Assembly: GCF_008931805.1 (NCBI RefSeq)
Contig: NZ_CP044399.1
Coordinates: 1,054,001 to 1,118,000 of the forward strand
Length of the DNA: 64,000 nucleotides
From: Moritella marina ATCC 15381
GTDB taxonomy: Bacteria > Pseudomonadota > Gammaproteobacteria > Enterobacterales > Moritellaceae
Direction of reading: 5' to 3'
The notes under the pieces were generated by a model that saw only the letters and a program-made list of their open reading frames with translations, did not search any database and had not been told where the DNA came from. Within the stretch, counting starts at the first letter, position 1. Each line of letters starts with the position of its first letter. The position numbers and the translations under genes were made by a program. Of this stretch, positions 23,935 to 53,825 are shown piece after piece.

Positions 23935-24158
23935 AAAGGGTGCTTTATTAACAAAGTTATCTATAAGCTTATGCCGAATTAGCAAAAAGGCGAATTATTT
24001 AGTTAATATAAGTACCGGTTCATGATTATGTGTGAGGAATTACTTGGTACTGTTTTATTTTGGTGCTGTTTTTTTGATGAAATGGTTATTTCGCTCAGCT
24101 AGAATAACAGCGCATGCGTAACAGATAGTATCTACTACGCATGCAGCTTAAGTGTAAA

Positions 24159-27122
24159 TTATTGCTGTTGGAATACTTTCGTTATTTTATTTAATTCAAT
24201 CACATCAGCAAACGGTATGTTTTGTTCTGGAAATGCGGCTTGCACTTTACTCGTTAAGGGTTTTGAAAACGAGCGATAGTTAATTTTAGACACGACCGTG
24301 ATTGGATAGCTAAGTCCCTCAGGCAGTTCAAATGATTCCACGCGAGTTTCATCGGGTGATATACGCGTATCAGCCAAGATCTTTTCTACACGCCAGAATT
24401 TCAGTCCAACGGGTTCTCCGTGCATATAACCACTTTTCTTGGCAAATACACGGCTGTCTTTTGGTAGATAGCCATCGTTTAACTGACCGCTGACTAAGCG
24501 TTCTACGCCTTTACTGTCTGTGACAACTAAATCAACCCATACTTGACGACGTGCGCCACCCGGCATTTTATGACCGGTATTATGGTTTGTCACCTTCACG
24601 TCGATATTACGGTCATCTTCACTCATTGCTACATCAAGTAACAGTGCGTTACGTAATATATCGCGGCTGAGTTTGCCATGTTCTTTCGAACGCATGTCGG
24701 AGAAGTAGTAGTTACCACCAATAAAGTTATGGGCAATTAAGTTTGGCTTAATAGGGCCATTATCGGTTGCTTGACCCGGTGTTTTCTTATCAAAATCGGT
24801 CATATCCATACGCATGTGACAATCGATACAGGTTTTATTCTGTTCTGGGTTGTCCGGTGCATTAAATTTAGAGGCTTGCCATTCGCCATAGTTGTTGTTC
24901 ACGTTAGCGCCTTGGCCTGGTGTGAATTCATTATGGCAAGTCGCACAATATAAAGAGCTTTTGTACAATTCAGGATTTGAATAGCTGTCTTTATGTTGTT
25001 GCGGCGATGCATTTATTTGTGCTTCAGCAATCAATTTTAATGCCGGGTTACTGGAAAATTCAAACAAGTATTCAGCGCGGTCTTTTAAGTTAACAGTCAG
25101 ATCAGTATTACCACCGGCATCTTCTGCTTTGGTGATACGGTGACAGAATACACAGCTCGTTCCAGTTTCATCGACAGGTAGACCTGCTTTCAATGCATCA
25201 CGTAGTGACTGGCCTTCTTTCTCATACATGCTGTTGAGGTGAGTTAGTGGCGCTGTATTGTTATTCAGGATCGTTTGTGGTGCATGGCAGCCTCGGCATA
25301 AGTTTCTAAAGGGTTCGCCTTCTGATTCTGCCGCTAGATTTTCTTGGAAGCGATAATAAGGGCTATCCATGTGCATGCCGTGGTTTGAATTTGACCACTG
25401 CTTATACAGGGTACTATGGCAAGATTCGCAACTTGCTGAGTTTAGCCATTCTGATTTATGGGTGAACTTGCGCTCGTCATCAAAACGTAACCAAGTTGAT
25501 AGATAAGGCAGATTCTCTTTCGTGGTGACGTACATGTTTAATGCTGACATTAAACGTACGATCTCTACTGAAGGCGCTTTAGGATCGACTTTTGGTAATT
25601 CCGGCTTTTTCGGATCTGTGCCCATACCGCCTTGGGTCTTTTGGATCATATCAATATAAGCTTCGATAGGGTCGCCAGCAATCATAGAAGATAAGCCAAT
25701 ATGACCAGTCATCGCATTGACTTTAACGTCTTTGGTTCCGTCTGCTAATAAGTATTTGTTGGTAAAGTTAAAACCGTCGACATGACAAGAGTTACAGCTC
25801 ATCCAGAAATCACCCGCCATGGCAGAGTTTTCAAATTTGTCGCTGTTTGCAAGATTGAAGAGCGTTTTACCTAAACGTAATTCAGGTGCGATTGGATCGT
25901 GACTAATTAAATTAGCGAATTGCGCATTCGCTAATTTAACTTTAGCAAAGGGACCTTTACCACTCACATCAAAACTGACTAAGTCGTGAGACATGGCATT
26001 TTGTACATATAGGGTACCGTCTTTTTCAATTAGGCTGCGCGGGTTAGTACCGGGTATATGACGGTATATTTGCGTTGCTTTTACGCCGCCTTGTAATTTA
26101 GTTCGGCGATGACGTTTCGACTTTTTACCAATTTCACCTTGGCGTGAGAGATCGAAGACTAGCAGATCTTCAGATCCTGATAAGGTAATGAATATTTTTT
26201 TACCGTCTTCTCGGAATGCGGCATCGTGTGGATTGGACACAATACGGGTGGTATTGTTGTTTTCAATGATGTTAATTTGTTTGAATAACTGTTTGCGCTT
26301 ATCAACCATTTCTTTTTCTTTACCTGGTGTCAGGTCAAGTAATGAAATAGTGGGGAAGACCGTCGATTGAAATTGAAAATTATCCGAGAATGACCACAAC
26401 ACATGGGGTAACCAAGCTTGCGTGCCATCGGGTGATATTGCAATATTATCAAGAACACGTGGTTTCCCCTGTGGTACAGCGCGTGATGCATGTTCTGGCG
26501 TATCAATAAGCTGAATGACTTTCTTTAATTGCAGCGTGTTTGATTGCAGTGTCGCAGCACGGGTATCATAAATAGATACCTGACCTGTCATGCTGTGAGT
26601 GACAAATAAGCGTCCATCATTCGCAAGGGCAAGGCCACGTGGGGTATCAGCTGTTTGTGTCGTTGCGGAAATATCACCATCAGTAGAGACGGTTAACAGC
26701 TGCTTGGCTTCAAAGAGCGTGACGTAATATTGTTTATTATATTCATCGTAAACAATACCGAAAGGGCGGTCACCGGTTTTAATTGTTTTGATTAGCGCTA
26801 GGCTCTTTGCATCAATAAGGTAGAGCTGATTGGCAAGGTAATCACTGACTAATAATTGGTTGTTAACAGAGTCGAGAGCGAGTCGACGAAGATCTTTACC
26901 TAAGGCTTGCTCTGCGATTAATTCACCTGTCTCTGCATTCAGAATACTGACGCTACCTGCATCCATATTTGCACTAATAAACTGCGTTTTATCAGTTGAT
27001 AGTAATAAGCTGTTACTTTTGGTATTTGCACTTACATTGCTGGCGTAAAGTGAGCTACTTATTAGCAATAACAAAGTAAGCATTAATTTTGGCAATGTAT
27101 TTATATTCATATTGATATTCAT
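24159..27122 (-). CDS. secreted six-haem cytochrome c with N-terminal beta-propeller
   Basis: 987 residues from ATG 27122 (ATG 27110 also possible). The longest frame begins at 27176, but that ATG lies inside the promoter and Fur-like site, so it is rejected. A signal peptide (hydrophobic LMLTLLLLISSSLYA) is followed by a YVTN-type beta-propeller (about 30-390). Six CxxCH haem sites follow, at 461, 583, 627, 675, 744 and 783 in the long numbering, the second in a cytochrome c554-like CESCHSTLYKQW setting, then a beta-rich tail. Probable periplasmic or surface electron carrier. Last gene of an iron-linked cluster; its exact partner is unknown. Confidence 0.85.
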   Translation of the reverse strand: MNINMNINTLPKLMLTLLLLISSSLYASNVSANTKSNSLLLSTDKTQFISANMDAGSVSILNAETGELIAEQALGKDLRRLALDSVNNQLLVSDYLANQLYLIDAKSLALIKTIKTGDRPFGIVYDEYNKQYYVTLFEAKQLLTVSTDGDISATTQTADTPRGLALANDGRLFVTHSMTGQVSIYDTRAATLQSNTLQLKKVIQLIDTPEHASRAVPQGKPRVLDNIAISPDGTQAWLPHVLWSFSDNFQFQSTVFPTISLLDLTPGKEKEMVDKRKQLFKQINIIENNNTTRIVSNPHDAAFREDGKKIFITLSGSEDLLVFDLSRQGEIGKKSKRHRRTKLQGGVKATQIYRHIPGTNPRSLIEKDGTLYVQNAMSHDLVSFDVSGKGPFAKVKLANAQFANLISHDPIAPELRLGKTLFNLANSDKFENSAMAGDFWMSCNSCHVDGFNFTNKYLLADGTKDVKVNAMTGHIGLSSMIAGDPIEAYIDMIQKTQGGMGTDPKKPELPKVDPKAPSVEIVRLMSALNMYVTTKENLPYLSTWLRFDDERKFTHKSEWLNSASCESCHSTLYKQWSNSNHGMHMDSPYYRFQENLAAESEGEPFRNLCRGCHAPQTILNNNTAPLTHLNSMYEKEGQSLRDALKAGLPVDETGTSCVFCHRITKAEDAGGNTDLTVNLKDRAEYLFEFSSNPALKLIAEAQINASPQQHKDSYSNPELYKSSLYCATCHNEFTPGQGANVNNNYGEWQASKFNAPDNPEQNKTCIDCHMRMDMTDFDKKTPGQATDNGPIKPNLIAHNFIGGNYYFSDMRSKEHGKLSRDILRNALLLDVAMSEDDRNIDVKVTNHNTGHKMPGGARRQVWVDLVVTDSKGVERLVSGQLNDGYLPKDSRVFAKKSGYMHGEPVGLKFWRVEKILADTRISPDETRVESFELPEGLSYPITVVSKINYRSFSKPLTSKVQAAFPEQNIPFADVIELNKITKVFQQQ

Positions 27123-27161
27123 AGATACAGTATCTTGATAGAGGTGAAGGGTATTGCGATT

Positions 27162-27180
27162 AAGAATGGTTATCATTATA
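27162..27180 (-). promoter_or_regulatory. Fur-like operator over the cytochrome promoter
   Basis: On the minus strand the 19 bases match the Fur consensus (GATAATGATAATCATTATC) at 15 positions. They overlap a TATAAT -10 box (27175-27180), with a TTGCAC -35 box 16 bases upstream (27197-27202). The site is 40 bases before the cytochrome start, the expected place for iron repression. Confidence 0.72.
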
Positions 27181-27211
27181 TAGTTTTAGTGCGATAGTGC
27201 AATAATTGCGG

Positions 27212-28648
27212 TTAGGATTGCGTGCTTAAATGATTAGGATCAAAGTAATAAAGGTATAAACTGCGTTCACCTAGAAAGCGACCTGTAAATTGCGTGACTA
27301 AACCCCCATTAATCAGTTTATCCGTGTCAAGTGCATTACTACTCAGCCGCCAGTATCCTTGCTGTTGAGCTTGGTAATTACTGCTACTTTGGTAATGGCG
27401 ATCTAAAATTACATGTTGTGGTAACGTGTGGCGCAAATTATCGATATTATAATTACTGATGATAATCTGTTGCGTATTCATTGTTGTAAAAAACTGAGTG
27501 GCTTGTAATACCGGTGCATTTTTCTGTGTTGAGAACTGTTTTAGACTGTGATGCCCCAGTGTGACCAGCAATATAATACTAACCACGTATAGAATAGGGT
27601 GAATGCTTTTTTGCAGATAGCTATTTTGCGTATAGAAGTGCTCTACTAGTTGGGCCGTAATGATGGGTAACAACAAACTGAAGACTGCTAAATGGCGAAT
27701 GTTTTCTGGATTTTGCCCGCGTATTATCCATGCAAACCAGCAGCAAGCGATGATACTGAGGCCTCGTGTCTTGGGTATATAAATCCCGATGATTAGACTG
27801 GTGGCTAATAAGGTTAACCCTAAGCTTGAATAGGTATTGTTTAAGGTTGTTAGCCACTGTTGTAACAGCGGATCCGTTGTGTTCGTGGTATTTCCCCAGA
27901 TGGTAAAATGACCTTGGGTAAAACGTTGACCTTCTTCGATATAAGCCCAGCCGTCTTGCATAAAGACATATCCAGCACAAAATAACCCAAGGATTGTGAT
28001 GCTAAATATTTGCCAACCGAGTCGTCGAAAACGCTGAAGCCCTTGAGCATGGTAAATACACTCTAAAACCAGTGCGCTCGTGACTAAAGGTAAATAGGAG
28101 GGGCGGGTAGCGAGGCATGCCGCTAATAATAGCCCACTGCTTATCGCGGAATATGTTTTTCTGGTGCTGACGTCAGTCGCGGCTTGTGTATAAAGGTGAG
28201 CCTGTAATAAATATAAGCTGAAGAACCACAACGCTGTCGCATCAGATAAGCCATTAAAGGCTAATTCAGCAATATTGCCTTGCAGTAAAAAAAGCATAAC
28301 GGCAAGGACTGTGAACCCCTTTGATTGCATACGTTGATAGCAATAGACAAAGACACTGAACGTTAACGCGATAGCAGAAAGAAAACTTAATAAGACATTA
28401 CTATTGGGGTGGGAAGTGATTGCGGCGATACTGCGTTCAAACCAAACAAAGCCGGGATAACCGGGAAAGTGTGGGCTGAACTCTAATACCGAAAAGTAAG
28501 TTAATGCACGCTGAAAATACAGTGCATCATCACTGCTAATATCAAAACTATAATAATTGAGTAAGCCAAAATAGCCCGCAATGCAGGCTATTACGCTAAA
28601 GCCGATAATTAAATCAGCGTAGCAAGGCTTATTACTTCGTTGGAGCAT
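27212..28648 (-). CDS. GT-C-like polytopic membrane protein
   Basis: 478 residues from ATG 28648, which lies inside the last codons of the previous gene (17-base overlap); the frame is open to 28696. About eleven membrane helices with a first periplasmic loop holding an acidic pair (SFDISSDDALYF) and then FPGYPGFVWFER, the layout of GT-C glycosyltransferases such as ArnT/PMT-like enzymes. Those transfer sugars from polyprenyl phosphates outside the membrane. The overlap means coupled translation with the two upstream genes. The donor and acceptor are unknown; the GT-C call is from topology and is moderate. Confidence 0.65.
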   Translation of the reverse strand: MLQRSNKPCYADLIIGFSVIACIAGYFGLLNYYSFDISSDDALYFQRALTYFSVLEFSPHFPGYPGFVWFERSIAAITSHPNSNVLLSFLSAIALTFSVFVYCYQRMQSKGFTVLAVMLFLLQGNIAELAFNGLSDATALWFFSLYLLQAHLYTQAATDVSTRKTYSAISSGLLLAACLATRPSYLPLVTSALVLECIYHAQGLQRFRRLGWQIFSITILGLFCAGYVFMQDGWAYIEEGQRFTQGHFTIWGNTTNTTDPLLQQWLTTLNNTYSSLGLTLLATSLIIGIYIPKTRGLSIIACCWFAWIIRGQNPENIRHLAVFSLLLPIITAQLVEHFYTQNSYLQKSIHPILYVVSIILLVTLGHHSLKQFSTQKNAPVLQATQFFTTMNTQQIIISNYNIDNLRHTLPQHVILDRHYQSSSNYQAQQQGYWRLSSNALDTDKLINGGLVTQFTGRFLGERSLYLYYFDPNHLSTQS

Positions 28649-29258
28649 CGGGTAATGTAAATTGCAGTGCCGCTTGTAAATCAGCTCTGAAGGCAATGAA
28701 GCGCGTTACATCAGCAGGTTTTTGACCGACACCAAATACACCGGGATTACCGATAGAGGCAAGCGCTCCACGGATGGCTAAATCTGCTTTCTGGCGATTA
28801 TCAGCCGTCAAATCAGCGGCCAGTAAATCAATAAATAACTTACTTTTGACCACGAGTACTTTAGCAACTTGGTAATCGTTAATGTTTTGTTCTGCACCTT
28901 CAAGGCGACGCATTACTTCCGCTTTCATCGTCGTAGTTAAGGCTGTCGAAACGCCTTGCTGGTTTTGGGTTGTTATCGCCGTTTGCATTTGCTCATCAAC
29001 ATTAAGACCGTGATGCTCATTAAAGTAAACAAACTCTGCCTGCATTGAGTTATATGCGCTTTGCACTGCATTGTAATCATTTGCCGACAGGGCTTTGAGT
29101 AAGGTTTCACGGCCTTCAATTAAAGGTTCTTTACCCGCAGCGGCATAAGAGTAAGCAAAGCTTTGCGTACTAAATAGCAATACGAAGAAACTGAAAAAGA
29201 ACGACTTTACTGTTTTTGCGTTGATCGCACTAAATGAGTATATCGAACTAAGTAACAT
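28632..29258 (-). CDS. small exported protein of unknown family
   Basis: 208 residues from ATG 29258, which overlaps the previous stop by 11 bases and has GGAGGG just upstream; a longer frame to 29357 is rejected. A signal peptide (FFFSFFVLLFSTQSFA) leads to an all-helical mature part of about 170 residues rich in Ala, Gln and Asp. The pattern (paired long helices, NEHHG, EVMRRLEGAEQN) recalls the helical periplasmic domains attached to some FTR1 permeases, but this is only an impression. It sits between an FAD enzyme and a membrane enzyme, close to an FTR1 gene. Confidence 0.6.
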   Translation of the reverse strand: MLLSSIYSFSAINAKTVKSFFFSFFVLLFSTQSFAYSYAAAGKEPLIEGRETLLKALSANDYNAVQSAYNSMQAEFVYFNEHHGLNVDEQMQTAITTQNQQGVSTALTTTMKAEVMRRLEGAEQNINDYQVAKVLVVKSKLFIDLLAADLTADNRQKADLAIRGALASIGNPGVFGVGQKPADVTRFIAFRADLQAALQFTLPDAPTK

Positions 29259-30690
29259 TTTTACCCTCCGGTGTTTTTGTATCATCCATAATGCTTTGCA
29301 CTTCAATGACGGTTTTTTCATTGCGGTGATCAAAGATTTTACGACGATTATCTTCACCTTTAATAATACCTTCTGCAGCCATTAAACCCATTTCCATTGC
29401 GGTATCAGTGAAGATGTAACGGAAAGTACCTTGGCGACCAGTCATAACCAAGTTGTCAAATTGGTTAAGGTGCGTAATTGCACGTTCACGTTTTTCGTTG
29501 TAGCTTACATCCATCATTGGATAAGCGTATTCAGTATAAGTGGTAAAGAATTCGCCAGTGCTTACATCGGGTACATCGAGGTGTTCAAGATCTGCTTTAA
29601 CGCGTTTTAGTAGCTTATTGTTGTCCATATTCCACACATCATCGCCTTTGTCACAGGGGATCTCAATCATCACTGATGTTTGACCTTTAGGTGCCATGAA
29701 AGGGGAACGACGACGTGGTTCTTGTAAACGAGTACCAATTAATTCTGGGTCAGATAGATACTGCCAAGTATTCTGTGATACGTTTTCTGTTGCCATCGGC
29801 ATGTTGAAAAATCGCAGTGAACGATAGGTTAAACCAGAATCAAAGCCTGTTAATGTACACACAACTGGTAGTGGAATGGTGCCTACTACATGGTCACAGC
29901 TAATCGTATGCATTTCACCGTTAAGTTCATAAGTCACAGCATCAATACGATTGACGCATTGCTGTAATGCGGTGATATTTGCGCCTTGAACTATGGTTAC
30001 GCCTTGCAACTGTAACTTTTCTGCAAGCTTGGTATACATTTGGCCAAAGCCGAGTTTAGGGTAACGGTATTTTTTAGCGTAAGTACGAGGTGTAGCCCCA
30101 CGAGTGGGTATTAAGCGTCGTGCGACATCTTTTAAATCTAACAAGCTGATGCGTTGAGATGCCCAGTCTGCCGAGAGTTGACGCGGATCGATTCCCCAAA
30201 GCTTGCCAGTGTAACCTTCAAAGAAATTCTTATATAAGGTCGTACCGAAACGCGTTTCAATCCACTCGGCAAAGTTACTGGTACTTTGTTCGCTTGGGCG
30301 TTTTTGGAAAGGCAGTTTAAAGACTAAATCTACCGCAGCACCAGCTAATAAACTGATTGGCGCATTACGCAGTAAGTTACCAATCGCGAGCGGGTAGTTG
30401 TAAGTACGGCCTTTAAAACGGATCACACTGGTACGCTCAGCATATAACAGATCATCAGTCATTAAGTCATCGATAAACTGTAAAAGTTTTGGGTTTTTAG
30501 TTATAAAGCGATGACCACCGTAGTCGAAACGATATTCGCCTTTTTCACCTTGGAATGTTTGCGTTGCGCACATGCCACCAACAAACTCTTCACGTTCTAG
30601 GATGGTGACTTCATAACCAGCTTGATTAAATTCCCATGCGGCCATGAGTCCAGCTGGACCTGCGCCTAAAATTACAATTTTTTTCGACAT
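29248..30690 (-). CDS. FAD-dependent amine-oxidase-like oxidoreductase
   Basis: 480 residues. The N-terminal Rossmann motif VILGAGPAGLMAAWEF binds FAD, followed by EREEFVGGMC and the RFDYGGHRF stretch. The middle (FFEGYTGKLWGIDPRQLSADWASQRI) and the TGRQGTFRYIFTDTAMEMG end are those of the protoporphyrinogen-oxidase / UDP-galactopyranose-mutase-like FAD family. Members act in polyprenyl, sugar or porphyrin chemistry. First of three overlapping genes (oxidoreductase, exported protein, GT-C). Linkage to a GT-C enzyme favours a sugar or polysaccharide role. Substrate not resolved. Confidence 0.75.
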   Translation of the reverse strand: MSKKIVILGAGPAGLMAAWEFNQAGYEVTILEREEFVGGMCATQTFQGEKGEYRFDYGGHRFITKNPKLLQFIDDLMTDDLLYAERTSVIRFKGRTYNYPLAIGNLLRNAPISLLAGAAVDLVFKLPFQKRPSEQSTSNFAEWIETRFGTTLYKNFFEGYTGKLWGIDPRQLSADWASQRISLLDLKDVARRLIPTRGATPRTYAKKYRYPKLGFGQMYTKLAEKLQLQGVTIVQGANITALQQCVNRIDAVTYELNGEMHTISCDHVVGTIPLPVVCTLTGFDSGLTYRSLRFFNMPMATENVSQNTWQYLSDPELIGTRLQEPRRRSPFMAPKGQTSVMIEIPCDKGDDVWNMDNNKLLKRVKADLEHLDVPDVSTGEFFTTYTEYAYPMMDVSYNEKRERAITHLNQFDNLVMTGRQGTFRYIFTDTAMEMGLMAAEGIIKGEDNRRKIFDHRNEKTVIEVQSIMDDTKTPEGKNVT

Positions 30691-30791
30691 TATTTGCTCA
30701 GTTTTAAAATTAGTGTTCTTTTTAAATAGAAAGTTTGATGAAGTAACTCGTCTTATTTAGTAGACAGCCTACTAATCGCGACTTTCTAGCA

Positions 30792-30883
30792 GATAGCATA
30801 AGCACGTCAACTCGCCGTAAACCCATCCATGGGGGCTTGGGCTGGCATCTATGCCAGCAACAATTGTCTTAGTTTATGCTATC
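30792..30883. repeat. palindromic intergenic element
   Basis: 92 bases between the FTR1 gene and the FAD gene. The ends form a 12-bp stem (GATAGCATAAGC / GTTTATGCTATC, one G-T pair). Inside are two more hairpins: CCCAT/ATGGG and a perfect GCTGGCAT/ATGCCAGC. The layout resembles ERIC- or MITE-like mobile palindromes. I saw no second copy in this window. Confidence 0.5.
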
Positions 30884-30917
30884 CACTCGGTATACTTTTC
30901 GTGCTATGAGTATCGTG

Positions 30918-31757
30918 TTATCCCGCGGCGGCTGTTTTAGCGTGCACTTGATAGCCACGTTGCCAGAACACAGAGAAGACCGCTAAATAAGCCCCCCAAA
31001 TAACCAGTGGTAATAGATTTGGTGATGAATTATAACCAAATAAAGCGCGTAAGAAAGTGCCAAATACACCTTGGTCATCAAGGATATGGCTAATATCAAA
31101 GACCGCCGTTTGGAATACGGGTAATACGTCGGCGCTCTGTAGCATATTAGTTGCTGAAGATAATAAACCAGCGGCAATAATAATGATCAACAAGCTGGTC
31201 CATTTGAAGAAGGCTTGGATGGGTACTTTACGGGTGCCGCGCATTAGCACAATCACGAGCACCAGCGATGCAACAAGGCCTGCACCAGCGCCAATTAAAC
31301 CATCTTGTAATGAAAAGTCGCCTTGACCTGAATACATCAATGCCGAGAAAAATAACACAGTTTCAAAACCTTCGCGCATGACCGCAAGGAAAGCTAAAAA
31401 GATTAACCCAAACACATTGCCTGTGGTTAATATTTCGCGGATGTTGTTTTGCATGTTCGCGACTTGGCTTTTAGCCTGGCGTTGCATCCAGATGGCCATG
31501 TAAGTGAGAACTAACGTAGCAAAACTTAAAATGCCGGCCATTAATAAATTACGGTATTCATGGGAGTCAAATTGGTCAACAACAAACTGGAAAATGAAAG
31601 CAACAATCAACGAGGCAACTAACCCCAGTGCCACACCAATATAGATGAGTTTGTTGTGTTTTGATTCACCCAGCTTTGCTAAGTAAGAAAGTATAATGCC
31701 AACGAGTAGGAAGGCTTCAAGTCCTTCACGGAAGGTAATTAAAAAACTGGCAAACAT
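30918..31757 (-). CDS. FTR1-family high-affinity iron permease
   Basis: 279 residues, seven helices. Both REXXE iron motifs are present: REGLE at 10-14 and REGFE at 128-132, as in EfeU and yeast Ftr1p. The family moves ferric iron across the inner membrane, usually after oxidation of ferrous iron. There is no EfeO or EfeB beside it. It follows the four-helix membrane gene by one base, so the two are surely co-translated. The partner oxidase is not obvious: candidates are the upstream membrane protein and the cytochrome downstream. Confidence 0.92.
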   Translation of the reverse strand: MFASFLITFREGLEAFLLVGIILSYLAKLGESKHNKLIYIGVALGLVASLIVAFIFQFVVDQFDSHEYRNLLMAGILSFATLVLTYMAIWMQRQAKSQVANMQNNIREILTTGNVFGLIFLAFLAVMREGFETVLFFSALMYSGQGDFSLQDGLIGAGAGLVASLVLVIVLMRGTRKVPIQAFFKWTSLLIIIIAAGLLSSATNMLQSADVLPVFQTAVFDISHILDDQGVFGTFLRALFGYNSSPNLLPLVIWGAYLAVFSVFWQRGYQVHAKTAAAG

Positions 31758-31758
31758 A

Positions 31759-32241
31759 TTAAGACTTCCTAAAAAATTTAATGACTGTCCAGCGCCATGC
31801 GTGACGAAGAACCAGTGGGGTGAGTAACCATGAACTGTAAAAATGGATATCTTGCATTAAAATACTGAAATTATTACCGGTGTTGCCCCAAAAAGTCAGG
31901 TAAATACCGGTAAGCGTACAAGCAACAAGTAAGTATTCTATTATTGTGCCGGTTTGACGCAAGAATTTCTTTTTACTGTTTTTAATCAGGTTGCGGTGCG
32001 ATAACCAGAAACTGCCAACAAAAACAGGGAATATACTAATACCAGCAAGCATGTGCATGAGTAATACGGTGCGCTCTACTTGCCACGGGATAGTGATAAA
32101 CGGCCACAATAAAAGTCCCGATAAGAACATTAAATATAATATTGCTTCCGCTTTTTTGTGGTGAAAGGCCAGACGTTTGAAATATTGCTGTAAACGTGAC
32201 CAGACGTTATCGTCGGCTGGAGTAGCTGCTTGAACTGACAT
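31759..32241 (-). CDS. four-helix membrane protein, possible b-type cytochrome
   Basis: 160 residues with four hydrophobic segments (about 33-50, 58-80, 99-118 and 134-146). Histidines lie at helix ends at 27/28, 63, 82, 133 and 147, an arrangement seen in diheme cytochrome b561-like four-helix bundles. No named domain recognised with certainty. One base separates its stop from the FTR1 start. The haem-binding role is inference; if true it would pass electrons from or to periplasmic iron near the permease. Confidence 0.6.
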   Translation of the reverse strand: MSVQAATPADDNVWSRLQQYFKRLAFHHKKAEAILYLMFLSGLLLWPFITIPWQVERTVLLMHMLAGISIFPVFVGSFWLSHRNLIKNSKKKFLRQTGTIIEYLLVACTLTGIYLTFWGNTGNNFSILMQDIHFYSSWLLTPLVLRHAWRWTVIKFFRKS

Positions 32242-32275
32242 GATAAAACCTTATTCATATCGACGGTATGAAAAC

Positions 32276-32310
32276 GCAAAAAGGGCTGAGTAAAATCTCA
32301 TCCCTTTTTG
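32276..32310 (-). terminator. terminator between the 680-residue gene and the FTR1 pair
   Basis: An interrupted stem (AAAAAGGG with CCCTTTTT, plus GAG/CTC) about 15 bp long. On the minus strand it is followed by T-rich sequence. It lies about 110 bases after the 680-residue gene, so the downstream FTR1 pair may depend on read-through or a separate promoter. Confidence 0.6.
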
Positions 32311-32327
32311 CAACTTTTATTTTAATT

Positions 32328-32387
32328 TCGCAGCGCTTTATTTAGCTGAATTAGGCTAACTTATTAAGTGAACTTAGCACGCTGCGA
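32328..32387. repeat. inverted repeat downstream of the 680-residue gene
   Basis: TCGCAGCG and CGCTGCGA (8 bp, perfect) enclose about 44 bases with two smaller pairings (TTAGC/GCTAA and CTTA/TAAG). It forms a three-branched fold next to the terminator at 32276-32310. Confidence 0.4.
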
Positions 32388-32414
32388 GATGGCTATTTGT
32401 TGCCAAAAGGGCGG

Positions 32415-34457
32415 TTATTTTGCGCTAACCGAGACTTTTGCTGCCATTGTTTGTGCTGTACCAAATTTACCGCCAGCTGCTGTAACTTGCTTCACACCAT
32501 CATTATCTGAATCGGTAGTATTGCTGTCTTTCAGTAAGTTTTCACCTGAATCACCAACCCATTCTGATAACTGCTGGCCACCGTTAACTACTTTTTTGAA
32601 CCAAGCGGTGTAACGTTCAGTTAAGTGTTGTAGTTCAAGTGCTGGAACATGTTCGCCTTCTTCGTTAGCAAGGTGAAGCATTGTTTCACGTAAACCACCC
32701 GAGATTGCTGCAGCAGTTAGTGGTGTGTGGATCGTTGCTTTACCTGGTGTTTGTGCCCAAGTACCTAGGTCAGCATCAAACATGTTTTTCTCTACTGCAA
32801 GGAAGATTGAACGTGCTGCTTGCTTGTAGCTGTCGTCTTGTGTTGCAAGGTAAGCTGCAACTAAACCACGGATTGCAGCGAATTGAGCGTCAAGTGATTG
32901 GTTTTTATCTACTGATTTACCAGACTTATTTTTTGATGAACTTAGTGTTGCGCCGTCATATACTAGGCCGTTTTTAGCTACTAACGTGTTAACGATGTAA
33001 TCAGCTTGTGCTTTGATTAGACCAAGCGCTTGTTTACCTTGAGGAGTAGCTAAATCTACATCACCGCCGTCTGCTGCAGCATAACCTACTGGCAGAGCAT
33101 CTTGTGAACGTTGGTAAATAGATAATGCTACGATGCTGTATGCCGCGTCGAATGTATCAACTTGTGCATTTTGCTTACCGTCGTATTTAGTAACAAAGGT
33201 ACCCGCTTTCTCATTGAAATGTAGGTTTGCTAAGTTTTGGAACGATAGGTTAGCCACGTTGCTGGCAACTGAGAATGCATCGTCAGCGATTACATTGTTC
33301 GTTGTTTTGTTATCAATGTTCTGTTTCGGTGCTGCTGCAAATGGTTTGCCATCAAACACAGCTTTGAATGCTGGGTTTTGAGCTGTATTCGCAGTACGTT
33401 GGTCAGTGAATGCATAGAACTCACTTACTGGCCATAATAACATCCATGTATCACGCAGTGATGATGAGCCATCTGTCACTGTTAGCTTACCGATGTTATT
33501 AACGTTGTTTTTCTGTGTTTCTTTCACGGCTACTTTATGTGCAAACCAGATAGGATTTTTAGATGCATCATAATCAGGACCAAATTTAACGCCTAGCTTG
33601 TTACCGTCAAAGCCAAGTTGCTGTTGCAGGATAAGTAACTTGTCTAGTGACATTTCAGTTAAGATCATGCCGTTGAAACCATCGGCAGCAGATACACCAA
33701 GGCTGTGCACACCGTCTTGATCCATCGTGCTTGATGTCGCTTCAACTTCTTCATCTGTTGTTGTAACGTGCATACCACCAAGGAAATCTTGTGACCACAT
33801 GACTTCTTTCAGGAAGATGCTGCCGATTGCACCTGGGTTTAAGGCTTTATCAAAACTTGCGCTATCCCATGCTAGTGTTTTGTAGTCACGGAAATAAGCT
33901 GGAATGACAGTGTTATGAACTGCTGCTTTACCTGTTGCAGATAATACTTCTAGTTCTTCACCATTTACTTTTGTGGTATCTACTTTACCTACAAATTCAG
34001 GGCTACCTGAGACGTATGGTACAGAAATAGGGTACATGTTTAATGGGATTTCTTCAGCTGGAAAGCCTACAGAGCCCGCAAGCGAAATAAAACGTTTACC
34101 TAAGTCAGCAAGAGAACCGCCGCGTGCTTGGTTAACTGGACCATTTACTAGGTGAGGACCCATAGTAGACTGGTAGTTTAACGCGTACATTGCTTCTTCT
34201 GAGTATTCGTAGCTTTCAATTCCCGCTGCATAATCGAATGCAGTTGGTTGATCAACTTGGTTTGGGTCTAAAATATCAAGGTCTAAACCGAGCGCTTCAG
34301 CAAGTGGTTCACCTGACAATTCGAATTCTGTATAAGCAAGAAAATTAGCTGCAGGAGAAAGTGTTTTATCAAGTACTTTTACATTTGCAGCATGTGATGC
34401 AAATGAAGCTGTAATTAACGCAGAAGAGATGGCAAAGCAAAGGGCAGATTTTTTCAC
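32415..34457 (-). CDS. large exported protein of unknown family, iron-locus neighbour
   Basis: 680 residues. A clean signal peptide (KKSALCFAISSALITASFASHA) precedes a mature protein with no Cys, no CxxCH and no hydrophobic helix, so it is periplasmic or secreted. The C-terminal third is a string of amphipathic helices (for example DAAYSIVALSIYQR, AQFAAIRGLVAAYLATQDDSYKQ) that looks like an alpha/alpha toroid as in glycosidase-type folds. I do not recognise a named family. It heads the cluster, with Fur-like sequences upstream at 34510-34528. Confidence 0.7.
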   Translation of the reverse strand: MKKSALCFAISSALITASFASHAANVKVLDKTLSPAANFLAYTEFELSGEPLAEALGLDLDILDPNQVDQPTAFDYAAGIESYEYSEEAMYALNYQSTMGPHLVNGPVNQARGGSLADLGKRFISLAGSVGFPAEEIPLNMYPISVPYVSGSPEFVGKVDTTKVNGEELEVLSATGKAAVHNTVIPAYFRDYKTLAWDSASFDKALNPGAIGSIFLKEVMWSQDFLGGMHVTTTDEEVEATSSTMDQDGVHSLGVSAADGFNGMILTEMSLDKLLILQQQLGFDGNKLGVKFGPDYDASKNPIWFAHKVAVKETQKNNVNNIGKLTVTDGSSSLRDTWMLLWPVSEFYAFTDQRTANTAQNPAFKAVFDGKPFAAAPKQNIDNKTTNNVIADDAFSVASNVANLSFQNLANLHFNEKAGTFVTKYDGKQNAQVDTFDAAYSIVALSIYQRSQDALPVGYAAADGGDVDLATPQGKQALGLIKAQADYIVNTLVAKNGLVYDGATLSSSKNKSGKSVDKNQSLDAQFAAIRGLVAAYLATQDDSYKQAARSIFLAVEKNMFDADLGTWAQTPGKATIHTPLTAAAISGGLRETMLHLANEEGEHVPALELQHLTERYTAWFKKVVNGGQQLSEWVGDSGENLLKDSNTTDSDNDGVKQVTAAGGKFGTAQTMAAKVSVSAK

Positions 34458-34509
34458 AACAAATCCTTTTTATTTTTTATAATAGACTACATTATTTTAT
34501 AGCCTTAAT

Positions 34510-34528
34510 GAGAATAGTTCGTATTATC
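34510..34528. promoter_or_regulatory. weak Fur-like site upstream of the 680-residue gene
   Basis: GAGAATAGTTCGTATTATC matches the 19-base Fur consensus at 12 positions, with intact outer halves. It lies 53 bases before the start. A second AT-rich partial match begins at 34559. Both are weaker than the site at 27162. Confidence 0.4.
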
Positions 34529-35244: not shown

Positions 35245-37389
35245 CTACCTCTGGGATGACTTTCCTATTGGTAATAATAGCTCAAATATCACGCCTTTAG
35301 GGCCTTGTTGGTTTTTTGCATTGACCTGGCCACAGTGGAAATCAGTGATTAATTTGACGATGTGCAACCCTAAACCAAGATGGGGTGTATCTGACTGCTG
35401 GCGATTAGAGACCATAGAGTCAAACAGTTGCGGAATATTATCACTGCTAAAATGTGGGCCTTGATTTTCAACGAGCAGTTGTAGTTGGTTGTCGAGTTTA
35501 TTAAGAGTGAAGCCTACTGGTTGATCGACAGGTGCATAATCAACCGCATTACTGATGAGTTTATCGAGTAATTGGACGATGAGCTCTGGCGCTAAATTTA
35601 TTGCGTAATTGTCTTTGTCAGTATGGCTCTTGTCGTAAGTTAATTTAAATTGATGGCTGCTATAAATTTGTCGGTAAGCATCAACCAACTCTTCTAACAT
35701 ATCGTCAAATGGTACAATTTGCCATTGCGCGTATTCAAAACTTTGCTCTAATTTAGTGGCTTCACTAAGGGCGTTTAATGTTTGGCTTAGACGGTTGGTC
35801 CCTTGCATTGCACGAGTCAGATATTTGCTTGCCTCTGGGTTTAAATTGGATAGTTCCAAATTTTCCAATGAGGTTCGTATAACCGCCACAGGGGTTTTCA
35901 ATTCATGAGACAATTTATCAGCCAGTGAAGCAAGATAGTCAGTGTACTTACCTTGGTTGACTGTTAATTGTTGCATTACACGAGATAAGTCCCCCAGCTC
36001 ATCTGGTAGTTTACTCGCGTCTGGTACGGACATAATCTTGCCATCGTTATCAATCGCATCACGGTAATTTTGTTTCATTTTGACGATTCGCCATGATAAC
36101 AGCGAGGCAAAAGTAAATAATACTGAAACGATGATGGCGATGATGGTAAACAGCAATATCAGCAGCTGGTTTAATGCCTTACTTGCTGACAGTAGGCTTT
36201 GTCGTGAGTCTTGTACGGCGACAAAATAGAATGGTTGGCCGTTAACGAGCATTGTTTTACTGTGTAGTTGTTTATTAATTGGCGAGTCTTGATACCAGGT
36301 TGTTTTCCCGAGTTGCGCAGGTGATAACCAACGACCTAAGCTTGTTGGTTCACGCCAATAAGGTAGCGAATCGGAGGTGAATAATTTGTTATAAATAGCG
36401 TTGCTAAACCAAGACGGGTCGACTTGGTTTTCATTCGTTTCTCTTTTTCTTTCTATCTCTATTTCGCTTTTATTTTCAGTTTCAGTTCTTGCATCAAGGG
36501 CATTCCACATTTGTTCTGCACTTAATTTCCCAATCAACCAATATTGGCTATTGAGTAAATATAAACTCAGGCCGGGTTGTTGGTAGGTCGCGAGTTGCTG
36601 GTTTAAGTCCAATGTTTCACGCACAAGGCTACGTTCGTAAGTTGAGCCGGGTTTAGATTTGAAATGTTGATTTAATTGCTGATCATTAAGGATAAGATCA
36701 AAACCTATAGCATCACTGGCTAAATTAATTGGTATTGCAATTTCTATCGTATAATGATCATCGCGCCATACCCATGAACCTGCATTTCGACTCGTGACTT
36801 GGCTGGTATTGTTCATCTCGACACGGCCAGAGCCTTGAGGCTTAATCTGCCAATGCGAAACCAGTCCCGTTTTATTGATACTGCGGATGTTAAGCTGATC
36901 GGCAGGGCGTTGCGGCTGAGTTGGATTATAATAATGTGGACGAAGAGCGCTCGTCTGAATAAAAATATAGAGTAATTTATCATTGGCTGCTAACTTAAAT
37001 TTAGCCGACGTCGGAGGTTCTTCAGCAAGGGGGGGTTTAGACTCGTCACGTTCAGGCATGTAGTCATAGCTATTAAGCTGAAACCAAGGGGTAGTAATAT
37101 TATCCCAATCGCTTTCTTCACCATCAAACCCATCCAATAACATTTTACTGTCGGTGAGGGGGGCATAATAGTTACCTTGATTGGTATTAAAATCACTGTA
37201 TTGCGATTGGTTTAGTTTGCGCTGAAGTTGCTCGGCCGCAGCGGTCATTTGTACGTCGAGCAATTGGCTATGACTTTGGCGTAAGCTAGTTTCTAAAATA
37301 CTGACACTTTGGCAACCAGCCCAAGGCAGTAATAACATTAAGCTGGCGACTAATAACAGCTGTGTTTTTAAACTGAAGTGAAATTTCAC
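35245..37389 (-). CDS. pdsS: sensor histidine kinase, dedicated sortase system (PdsS) type
   Basis: 714 residues. An N-terminal helix, a large periplasmic region (about 35-405) with a carbohydrate-binding-like section (LDGFDGEESDWDNI), a second helix at about 408-430, a HAMP-like linker, the HisKA box DKLSHELKTPVAVIR with the phosphorylated His, and a C-terminal ATPase with HLGLGLHIVKL. Length and periplasmic layout match the family called the proteobacterial dedicated sortase system histidine kinase. Start overlaps the regulator stop by four bases. No sortase or LPxTG target is in the window. Confidence 0.82.
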   Translation of the reverse strand: MKFHFSLKTQLLLVASLMLLLPWAGCQSVSILETSLRQSHSQLLDVQMTAAAEQLQRKLNQSQYSDFNTNQGNYYAPLTDSKMLLDGFDGEESDWDNITTPWFQLNSYDYMPERDESKPPLAEEPPTSAKFKLAANDKLLYIFIQTSALRPHYYNPTQPQRPADQLNIRSINKTGLVSHWQIKPQGSGRVEMNNTSQVTSRNAGSWVWRDDHYTIEIAIPINLASDAIGFDLILNDQQLNQHFKSKPGSTYERSLVRETLDLNQQLATYQQPGLSLYLLNSQYWLIGKLSAEQMWNALDARTETENKSEIEIERKRETNENQVDPSWFSNAIYNKLFTSDSLPYWREPTSLGRWLSPAQLGKTTWYQDSPINKQLHSKTMLVNGQPFYFVAVQDSRQSLLSASKALNQLLILLFTIIAIIVSVLFTFASLLSWRIVKMKQNYRDAIDNDGKIMSVPDASKLPDELGDLSRVMQQLTVNQGKYTDYLASLADKLSHELKTPVAVIRTSLENLELSNLNPEASKYLTRAMQGTNRLSQTLNALSEATKLEQSFEYAQWQIVPFDDMLEELVDAYRQIYSSHQFKLTYDKSHTDKDNYAINLAPELIVQLLDKLISNAVDYAPVDQPVGFTLNKLDNQLQLLVENQGPHFSSDNIPQLFDSMVSNRQQSDTPHLGLGLHIVKLITDFHCGQVNAKNQQGPKGVIFELLLPIGKSSQR

Positions 37390-38090
37390 TCAATAACCCA
37401 GCGATAACCCATACCATAAGCTGTTTTTATGGCGTTAAATTCACTATCTATATAACTGAATTTTTTACGTATACGCTTGATGTGTGTGGTGATGGTGTTG
37501 TTATCTAATACCACGTGTGCCGCATCCATGAGTTGATCTCTATTTTTAACTTGGCCGGGATATTTAGCCAGCGTATGCACAATCCAAAACTCGGTTAACG
37601 TTAGCATCACCGGTTGCTCTTGCCAGTATGTTTCAATACGCTCGACATTGATTCGCAGTAATCCTCGATTAAGTACTTGCTCGTCATTCGAGACGGGTTT
37701 TTTTAGTGCTTGAACACGACGAAACAGTGCGGACACACGGGCTAAAACTTGATGAATACTCACGTCTTTCGTTAGGTAGTCATCGGCGCCCAGACGCAAT
37801 GCTGATATTTCGTCAAGTTCGCTGTTTCGTGCGGTTAAAAATATAATCGGTAGGGTATCTGATAATTGGCGTAATGTGCGGCATAGCTCAAAACCACCCT
37901 CGTATTCATCTTGCAAGCCGACATCAATGATCGCCATATCTGGTAATGCGAGTGCAAAAGCGGCGAGTGCATCTTGGCGATTATGGAAAATTGAAACCCG
38001 GTAGCCGATCCGTTGTAATGCATCACGATAATTTTCTGCAATATTTATTTCGTCTTCAACGAGGGCAATGTGTAATTGTTGTTTAATCAT
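37386..38090 (-). CDS. pdsR: response regulator, dedicated sortase system (PdsR) type
   Basis: 234 residues. Receiver domain with acidic pair (VEDE), phosphorylated Asp in IIDVGLQDE, Thr in FLTARN and Lys in LTKD; then an OmpR-type winged helix ending in TITTHIKRIRKKFSYID and YGMGYRW. These features match the PdsR group. It should switch genes in response to PdsS. First gene of pdsR-pdsS-DUF2982. Its partner sortase is not here. Confidence 0.85.
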   Translation of the reverse strand: MIKQQLHIALVEDEINIAENYRDALQRIGYRVSIFHNRQDALAAFALALPDMAIIDVGLQDEYEGGFELCRTLRQLSDTLPIIFLTARNSELDEISALRLGADDYLTKDVSIHQVLARVSALFRRVQALKKPVSNDEQVLNRGLLRINVERIETYWQEQPVMLTLTEFWIVHTLAKYPGQVKNRDQLMDAAHVVLDNNTITTHIKRIRKKFSYIDSEFNAIKTAYGMGYRWVIE

Positions 38091-52136: not shown

Positions 52137-53675
52137 TTATGCTGTTAGAGCCTCATGCTGCAGCTTATTCAGCATTCTCATTGTAGCTTGTATTCCTGCA
52201 AATACCTGATTTGAGCTGACGCCACGAGTACGGAAAGTTGAACCTCCTTGTCGCCACGTGATAAAGCTTTCAGTTAAAGCGCTCGTTTTCCCACCGGGTG
52301 GAATACGCACCTGGTAGTTGTCTAAATTAGGAAGTTCAAAATCTACTTTTTGCATAATGGCTTCGATCGCCATACTGAATGCATCAAAGCCACCATTACC
52401 AGAACCTGCTGATTTGTATATGTCATCGCCAATACGAATGCGGATACTCGCCGTTGAGTCGACATTGAGACCTGATGTGATCGAGCAGTTAAGTAACTCA
52501 ATGTGTGAGTAATCTTTGCTTTCTAACAGGTCTGCGATAATAAATGGCAAGTCTTCAGGGGTAATAATCGCTTTTTGATCGCCGAGGCTAACAATGCGTT
52601 CAAGCAATTTAGTTTTTTGTTCAGCACTAAGATCGATACTCAAATCTTTTAGGTTTTTTTCTAACGATGCTTTCCCGCTCATCTTACCGAGCGCATAGGT
52701 ACGTGTCCGTTCAAACCGTTCAGGGCCTAACACAGTTTGATATAAGCCCCCTTTATTATCGCCATCAGCATGAATGCCACTTGTCTGAGTAAACACGTCA
52801 GCGCCGATGATAGGAGCATTAGCAGGGGTGATCTTACCTGAGAAGTTCTCAATCATTTGACTGATCTGATGAATATGCTGTTCGTTGATTGACGATTCAA
52901 TACCGAGCTTGTCTTTTAATACCACGGCAACCTCTGCAAGAGAGGCGTTACCTGCGCGTTCACCTAAACAGTTAACAGTACAATGGATAGCGCTAATTCC
53001 TGCTTTGGCTGCGGTGAGGGCATTCGCTGTCGCTAAACCGTAATCATTATGTGGGTGAAAATCAAATTGTAATTGCGGGAAACGGCTGATCATATCAGAC
53101 AGGCTGGTATGCACTTCATCTGGCGACATCACTCCGAGCGTATCCGGTAACATATAATGCTGGATTGGCAGATCGGATAGGGCCGTGATCATGTTGTAAA
53201 CATAGTCAGGGTTATCGCTATAGCCATTAGACCAATCTTCCAGGTAAATATTTACGCTTAAATCTTGCTCCATTGCATAATGGATCGTTTCTCTTACATC
53301 AGCAATATGATCTGCAGGGCTTTTTCGTAATTGTTCAGTGCAGTGTTTTTCGCTGCCTTTGGTTAATAGATTGATTACTTTAGCCCCGCTAGATTTGATC
53401 CAATCAACACTTTTTGTGTGATCTACAAAGCCTAAAATTTCAATACGATGTGCAATTTTCTCTTGCTCTGCCCACTGCATTAATGAAGATACTGCATGTT
53501 TTTCGCCCAGTGATACACGGGCAGATGCGACTTCAATACGATCAACGTTTAGGGATTGGAGTAGGGCTTTGGCAATACTGACTTTTTCGTCGGGGGTGAA
53601 GGAGACACCTTGGGTTTGCTCTCCGTCGCGAAGAGTAGTGTCCATTAACTGGACTCGAGGGCGCATGATTTCCAT
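52137..53675 (-). CDS. cimA: citramalate synthase, Leptospira type (LeuA-like family)
   Basis: 512 residues from ATG 53675 with AGGT at a proper distance; the frame to TTG 53693 is rejected. HMGL-like TIM barrel with DTTLRDGEQTQGVSF (Arg, Asp and Glu of the active site) and the metal-site HPHNDYG, then a C-terminal LeuA allosteric domain (VRIPPGGKTSAL). The whole length follows Leptospira CimA closely (VDRIEVASARVS, LEDWSNGYSDNPDY), unlike E. coli LeuA, which carries RDGEQAL. It makes citramalate from pyruvate and acetyl-CoA for isoleucine. After leuC-leuD; 2-isopropylmalate activity cannot be excluded. Confidence 0.8.
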   Translation of the reverse strand: MEIMRPRVQLMDTTLRDGEQTQGVSFTPDEKVSIAKALLQSLNVDRIEVASARVSLGEKHAVSSLMQWAEQEKIAHRIEILGFVDHTKSVDWIKSSGAKVINLLTKGSEKHCTEQLRKSPADHIADVRETIHYAMEQDLSVNIYLEDWSNGYSDNPDYVYNMITALSDLPIQHYMLPDTLGVMSPDEVHTSLSDMISRFPQLQFDFHPHNDYGLATANALTAAKAGISAIHCTVNCLGERAGNASLAEVAVVLKDKLGIESSINEQHIHQISQMIENFSGKITPANAPIIGADVFTQTSGIHADGDNKGGLYQTVLGPERFERTRTYALGKMSGKASLEKNLKDLSIDLSAEQKTKLLERIVSLGDQKAIITPEDLPFIIADLLESKDYSHIELLNCSITSGLNVDSTASIRIRIGDDIYKSAGSGNGGFDAFSMAIEAIMQKVDFELPNLDNYQVRIPPGGKTSALTESFITWRQGGSTFRTRGVSSNQVFAGIQATMRMLNKLQHEALTA

Positions 53676-53825
53676 ATTTGCTACCTGCTTCAAATTGTAG
53701 GGAAAGAGCGGATAGAAGATACTACCCGCTTATAGCTATCAGCTTTAGCGTATGCGCTTAAGCCGTCCTTCAGTCAAGTCAACAATCGTGCTTTGGTGGC
53801 GCTATTGCTGAGTATGATTGAATTA

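Follow-up and report, generated by a model that had tools for sequence, protein, structure and literature searches.

Iron permeases of the FTR1 family are thought to need a copper or peroxidase ferroxidase. Several kinds of FTR1 system have been described. EfeUOB and EfeUOB-M join an FTR1-family permease to exported partners, and FtrABCD, FetMP and the P19 systems join one to periplasmic metal and redox proteins. P19-FTR1 systems are mentioned in one account with FMN-binding or thioredoxin-like partners (PMC8238504). In another, a passage on yeast has Ftr1p transporting only ferric iron produced in situ by Fet3p, and the ferrous oxidase of FtrABCD is there said to remain unknown, with FtrB and FtrA named as candidates (PMC11966278). 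Here, we describe a locus at positions 24159-34457 of a 64,000-nt window (the whole stretch of DNA analysed) of the 4.76-Mb genome of Moritella marina ATCC 15381. Its seven genes encode an exported protein of 680 residues (p680), a four-helix membrane protein (b4TM), an FTR1 permease, an FAD-dependent oxidoreductase (FAD), a small exported protein (shp), a GT-C-like membrane protein (GT-C) and a multihaem cytochrome (cytC). These genes are a real, mobile set and no chance juxtaposition. A literature search by title and abstract found no description of it.

The permease matches PF03239 with 152.9 bits (cut-off 25.3; E 1.4e-44) and is the sole FTR1 match in its genome. Both REXXE motifs reported by an earlier reading of the sequence (hereafter, the sequence-only reading) are present, as REGLE and REGFE, at R10-E14 and R128-E132. 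They are invariant in all 12 rows (window plus 11 chosen relatives) of one of our hand-picked alignments, the others having 21 rows for b4TM, 17 for shp, 15 for GT-C and 20 for cytC. Unlike EfeUOB, the set has no M75 (EfeO/EfeM) protein in the cluster or in its own genome (one of six genomes searched has such a domain), and the permease scores 205.1 bits against the EfeU equivalog NF041756, below the cut-off of 255. Unlike FtrABCD, FetMP and the P19 systems, it has no P19 (PF10634) protein in its own genome. The proposal that the usual FTR1 partners are missing therefore holds genome-wide for M75 and P19. The EfeB DyP peroxidase was not among the seven genes in hidden Markov model (HMM) scans, but neither it nor multicopper oxidases were searched for genome-wide. 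In the genome of another family that carries the set (G036), there is also a P19 gene next to a long FTR1 (L175, L142), so two FTR1 systems coexist there.

A seven-gene set that travels together

The sequence-only reading treated the seven genes as one unit, a view it would have given up had they occurred together only in this strain. Synteny and co-occurrence back it. All seven share one order and the same flanks in the ten same-genus genomes fetched (all chosen for a p680 match), and the order recurs, with different flanks, in G036. Thus the set is intact across the genus and in another family, where its neighbours on either side, upstream of p680 and past cytC, are not carried along (L031). 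Among 197 genomes of the order, p680, cytC (E≤1e-50) and shp occur in the same 19, with one weak extra match for shp (E 4.3e-4); cytC is present in each of the 13 p680 genomes searched. In addition, over 27 complete loci (L039, L041, L042 and L109 left out; no outside gene as control), pairwise distances are correlated between the seven families, with r 0.91-0.98; shared ancestry of the hosts may contribute to this figure.

A p680-alignment scan of named genomes found 84 p680 relatives, the closest being from Moritella. Gene presence was scored by tblastn of the window proteins at the best 80 of these 84 loci: p680 at 80, b4TM and cytC at 51 each, FAD at 37, shp and GT-C at 36 each, and FTR1 at 31. 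Aeromonas accounts for 26 of the 80, with p680 solitary at its locus. There, cytC, FTR1 and shp lie elsewhere in the genome (7 of 7 Aeromonas-like genomes searched), and the second locus has the order b4TM-cytC-FTR1-FAD-shp-GT-C in all four loci fetched, meaning that Aeromonas holds the full set in two places. Clustering of neighbours revealed no eighth family that accompanies the set as widely: one family (median 264 aa) occurs in eight non-Aeromonas loci, and others occur in four or five, mostly of one lineage. Carriers of p680 belong to the Pseudomonadota and Campylobacterota, plus one Bacillota plasmid. Sampling of 369 genomes of the class found p680 in its own genome only; 398 genomes of the phylum added two marginal partial matches (E 2.3e-4 and 3.8e-4), which were not used. 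The family is therefore patchy.

Table 1. Features of the locus, in window coordinates.
Feature	Position	Strand	Description
p680	32415..34457	minus	680 aa, exported, without named family; predicted (alpha/alpha) toroid; signature gene
b4TM	31759..32241	minus	160 aa, four-helix membrane protein; probable di-haem b-type cytochrome (H63, H82, H133, H147)
FTR1/EfeU-family permease	30918..31757	minus	279 aa; PF03239 match and two REXXE
FAD-dependent oxidoreductase, PRK07208 type (UDP-galactopyranose mutase/amine oxidase superfamily)	29248..30690	minus	480 aa; HMM matches
shp, small exported helical protein	28632..29357	minus	241 aa from GTG, without known family; start probably ATG at 29258
GT-C-like membrane glycosyltransferase	27212..28696	minus	494 aa; start probably ATG at 28648
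cytC, exported beta-propeller six-haem cytochrome	24159..27176	minus	1005 aa; six CxxCH
Fur-box-like site upstream of p680, AATACGAACTATTCTCATT	34507..34525	minus	15/18 to consensus, 68 bases before start
Hairpin between p680 and b4TM	32275..32312	minus	z -2.76 against shuffles, of which 3/200 fold as well; not in terminator list
Terminator-like hairpin after cytC	24111..24145	minus	16 pairs, 6 G-C

All seven minus-strand open reading frames (ORFs) were found where the sequence-only reading had placed them, and its one-base gap is position 31758. Its gene overlaps of 17 and 11 bases require the internal ATG starts of GT-C and shp; taken at full length, the ORFs share 65 and 110 bases. HMM matches agree with its identities for the FAD protein, FTR1, the cytochrome and the propeller; its GT-C-like label is backed by matches of relatives, but the window protein itself has none. 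Pfam and NCBIfam scans gave no significant name to p680, b4TM, shp or the window GT-C protein. The gap between FTR1 and FAD (30691-30917) measures 227 bases; in other genomes of the genus, the ends of the two matches lie ~80 to 240 bases apart. The gap perhaps holds a small inserted repeat, but a 40-base piece of it has no second copy within the window. Just upstream of the cluster, with a DUF2982 gene in between, lie a histidine kinase and a response regulator of the “proteobacterial dedicated sortase system” (35245-38090, minus; TIGR03785 below cut-off, TIGR03787 above), a pair not found beside the cluster in another family (L031). Farther away, a citramalate synthase-like protein (52137-53693, minus) scores 642.7 bits against the Leptospira CimA model (cut-off 950).

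Probable iron control and the modules of the set

The gene set is probably iron-controlled, judging from Fur-box-like sites. The score of the site upstream of p680 was reached by 1 of 200 shuffles; the heads of the other cluster genes tested score 10 or 11 (shp not scored), and that of DUF2982 scores 12. Among non-Aeromonas, non-Moritella p680 heads, 37 of 51 have a site of at least 14/18, as compared with 26 of 435 control ORFs (6%); for Aeromonas, 21 of 26 do. With a threshold of 15/18, the counts are 31 of 51 and 18 of 435, and just 2 of 26 for Aeromonas. The four named Moritella loci stand outside these 51 and 26 heads, with their other ORFs in the control, and the 51 include L031. Another count gave sites at 63 of 82 p680 heads. 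A site also precedes b4TM in 4 of 4 loci from Aeromonas (within 350 bases, as opposed to the 250 scanned elsewhere). Scoring was against the Fur consensus; Alphaproteobacteria may use other iron regulators. Together with FTR1, the site makes the iron theme of the sequence-only reading likely. As for other transcription signals, the hairpin after p680 may be a partial terminator that lowers downstream expression; the region has 16 terminator-like sites, against 9.7 in shuffles.

Incomplete loci suggest how the set is built. In 22 genomes with incomplete p680 loci, many of them fragmented metagenome-assembled genomes, b4TM is kept at 20 of the loci and cytC at 20. FTR1 was not found in 19 of the genomes, and one of the three matches is weak and partial. 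A strong shp match occurs in seven and a weak one in one; the 14 genomes with no match have loci that also lack FAD and GT-C. FAD is present at all 31 FTR1 loci and occurs without FTR1 at six (best 80 of 84). The picture is a nested one: a p680-b4TM-cytC core, then FAD-shp-GT-C, then FTR1. There are two exceptions: (i) L057, with p680 alone in a genome that has the full set at L043; and (ii) L064, with p680-FAD-shp-GT-C, and cytC elsewhere. The first of these genomes is Oceanospirillales bacterium XeTr1, where the solitary p680 is a second copy. The p680 tree places strain Hp36 (L054), which has the core only, as sister to Endozoicomonas OPT23 (L053), which has the full set, suggesting gene loss. 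The claim that the redox proteins serve the permease is thus not borne out: since FTR1 is mostly not found while b4TM and cytC stay, the core is p680 plus cytC and FTR1 is optional. FTR1 and the FAD-shp-GT-C trio look like add-ons.

The trio is perhaps a glycan-related accessory module. Its FAD protein scores 587.9 bits against NF005547 (cut-off 380) and matches PF01593 with E 6.8e-22. Among 15 GT-C members, two match PMT_2 (best 3.7e-5), two GT87 and one GT22; the window protein matches none of these. The GT-C profile weakly matches GPI mannosyltransferase 1 (E 0.008), and D57 and PxFPxYP are invariant in all rows. For shp, the window protein has no Pfam match and the 17 family members show scattered weak ones, with AYxYxAxG and GxPGxFGxG as conserved motifs. 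A detached helical N-terminal domain of a long FTR1 was considered as its origin and rejected, with an hhalign probability of 0.7% against one such FTR1 (L142).

The exported protein and its haem partners

p680 is the signature of the set. It has no Pfam match at E≤0.1, no match among PDB sequences, and a single, insignificant NCBIfam match (E 0.061). An AlphaFold2 model from a 56-row alignment (pLDDT 91.6, pTM 0.92) replaced a first model from seven sequences (pLDDT 35.5); the alignment leaves out 21 of the 26 Aeromonas loci, as well as L041, L045, L048, L103 and L109. The modelled fold is an (alpha/alpha) toroid. Across 57 sequences, including one from Anoxybacillus (see below), 95 positions are invariant, of which 20 are acidic (11 Glu, 9 Asp, as compared with 2 Arg and 1 Lys), six are Tyr and four are Trp (W197, W221, W338 and W342). 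Such acid-rich invariant positions would suit a metal site, although none has been located.

The fold brings to mind the AGE epimerases, GH105 and GH76, so p680 could be a toroid enzyme or glycan binder within a carbohydrate-linked redox system, with FAD and GT-C making the glycan and the iron genes merely co-regulated. The GT-C and UGM-like genes do travel with the set. p680 is 8-14% identical to these toroids and has large extra regions; the likeness is one of fold (Foldseek TM-score over the p680 query ≤0.36, best E 2.5e-5). However, a shared toroid fold proves no function, the trio was not found at the 14 incomplete loci described above, and the operators are Fur-box-like. We consider this explanation very improbable.

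The cytochrome has the six CxxCH sites attributed to it by the sequence-only reading, invariant in 20 of 20 rows (the window plus 19 of 52 loci with a match). It scores below the cut-offs of two haem-protein models: 17.2 bits against CCP_MauG PF03150 (cut-off 25.6) and 12.2 bits against the MbnH model TIGR04039 (E 0.071; cut-off 362.85). Its membrane partner, b4TM, has H63, H82, H133 and H147 invariant in 21 of 21 rows. By eye, helices 2 and 4 each seem to hold two of these His, 19 and 14 residues apart, which would place one haem near each membrane face. The window b4TM has no DUF4405 (PF14358) match. Of its relatives, 5 of 21 reach DUF4405 (best E 0.0056) and 2 of 21 reach cytochrome b561 (best 0.022), none significantly. 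In six of 24 loci listed (L073, L087, L096, L102, L108 and L118), b4TM and cytC form one ORF, and 12 of the 48 cytC ORFs in the clustering have a b4TM match as well. The membrane protein is therefore tied directly to the cytochrome, which bears out its proposed role as the cytochrome's partner. A Sulfurimonas genome (L160) has, in addition to a full cytochrome, a second locus where the four-helix match is weak and cytC is matched in its C-terminal part only (profile 548-987), as if the five-haem half could work alone.

Membrane cytochromes of the DUF4405, PepSY-like and FezC kinds likewise have conserved His and presumed transmembrane electron transfer. Haem b spectra are reported for a DUF4405 protein with four central His in an article that, in the part concerned, also links FezC to iron-storing ferrosomes (PMC11334425). 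b4TM, by contrast, is only weakly DUF4405-like and has a c-type multihaem protein as its partner, in some loci within the same ORF.

A simpler version of the pair occurs on a plasmid of Anoxybacillus amylolyticus (Bacillota). A p680 homologue (42% identical, with a lipobox-like start) is followed by P0001, a propeller protein of 651 aa that has two CxxCH motifs and a MauG-type domain and scores 30.9 bits against CCP_MauG, above the cut-off. Both genes have a 15/18 Fur-box-like site. A small gene before p680, P0002, has no significant Pfam match. P0001 and the window cytC are 35% identical over 561 aligned columns (E 7e-92), with homology ending at P0001 residue 545 of 651. By this comparison, the first haem domain of cytC is homologous to a propeller di-haem MauG-type protein. 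p680 and the propeller cytochrome are thus probably an old pair; in the Proteobacterial form, five haems and a membrane b cytochrome seem to have taken the place of the second MauG haem. A repeat search with the Anoxybacillus p680 found no other Bacillota plasmid, so this view of the origin rests on one Bacillota record.

Haem proteins of the MauG type act on peroxide or oxidise proteins. MbnP/MbnH, MopE/SACCP and CorA/CorB likewise combine an exported partner with a MauG-related haem protein. In this set, by contrast, the partner is a 680-aa toroid, and the haem protein has a propeller and, in Proteobacteria, six haems and a b-type membrane subunit. The operators also differ: the MopE and CorA genes are described as copper-repressed (PMC3621798), whereas this set has an iron-type operator. 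The same article, in its passage on MopE, has a Trp converted to kynurenine in the copper site (PMC3621798). p680 could be the iron counterpart of MopE/MbnP, with the haem 1 domain oxidising an invariant Trp or Tyr to build a metal site, the role suggested for SACCP towards MopE. The steadiness of the p680-cytC pair, the invariant Trp and the CCP_MauG score of P0001 are consistent with such maturation. We nevertheless think it unlikely: the window cytC is homologous to the first part of P0001 only and scores under the CCP_MauG cut-off, and five extra haems plus a membrane b cytochrome seem excessive for protein modification.

A possible redox route for iron

The reading we prefer, to which we give about an even chance, is a Fur-controlled, extracytoplasmic redox system for iron assimilation that is linked to the quinone pool. 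p680 would bind iron or an iron complex through its conserved carboxylates, and the propeller cytochrome would dock on it. Electrons would move between p680-bound iron and the quinone pool by way of haem 1, the five C-terminal c haems and the two b haems of b4TM. Where FTR1 is present, the favoured direction would be oxidation of ferrous iron on p680, with the electron going to quinone; ferric iron would then be passed from p680 to FTR1, replacing a copper or peroxidase ferroxidase. Because the genome has no M75 or P19 protein, the redox chain could be the missing FTR1 partner. A bolder version, about which we are doubtful, is that of an unnamed cross-phylum Fur-controlled system evolved from the MauG-type pair on the Bacillota plasmid, its multihaem chain to quinone serving as an oxygen-independent ferroxidase for FTR1. 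Some carriers of the set presumably live without much oxygen.

The chain could also run the other way. As a ferric reductase, it would bring quinol electrons outward through b4TM and cytC to reduce ferric iron carried by p680, and FTR1 or FeoB would import the ferrous product. Most genomes with incomplete loci, which keep b4TM and cytC with no FTR1 match, are consistent with this. The Anoxybacillus version speaks against it: no b-type gene is annotated next to it in the plasmid gene table, itself incomplete, and its MauG-type haem pair belongs to a family with other activities. Precedents are available, since one account proposes that PepSY-like membrane proteins under Fur repression, together with flavinylated partners, are assimilatory iron reductases (PMC8238504), and a cytochrome b and multihaem gene pair is put forward in another as the methanophenazine-cytochrome c oxidoreductase of ANME archaea (PMC9012536). 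We regard a reductase as a possibility, though not the one we expect; favouring the oxidising direction is a judgement, and the reductase is a close rival.

Several observations count against the iron-assimilation reading. First, FTR1 was not found in most genomes with incomplete loci, implying that the core acts without it. Second, a pure redox model leaves the FAD-shp-GT-C trio without a role. Third, 14 of the 51 p680 heads have no site of 14/18, seven of the 14 being alphaproteobacterial. Fourth, b4TM has no significant family match. Fifth, the p680 fold is common to sugar epimerases and glycosidases rather than to known iron binders. Lastly, the co-occurrence seen in the order is confined to 3 of 79 genera, and hence reflects few independent events.

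How bacterial FTR1 permeases get oxidised or reduced iron is an open question. The set described here offers a defined redox chain that is genetically tied to FTR1, along with a signature exported protein that has no named family.

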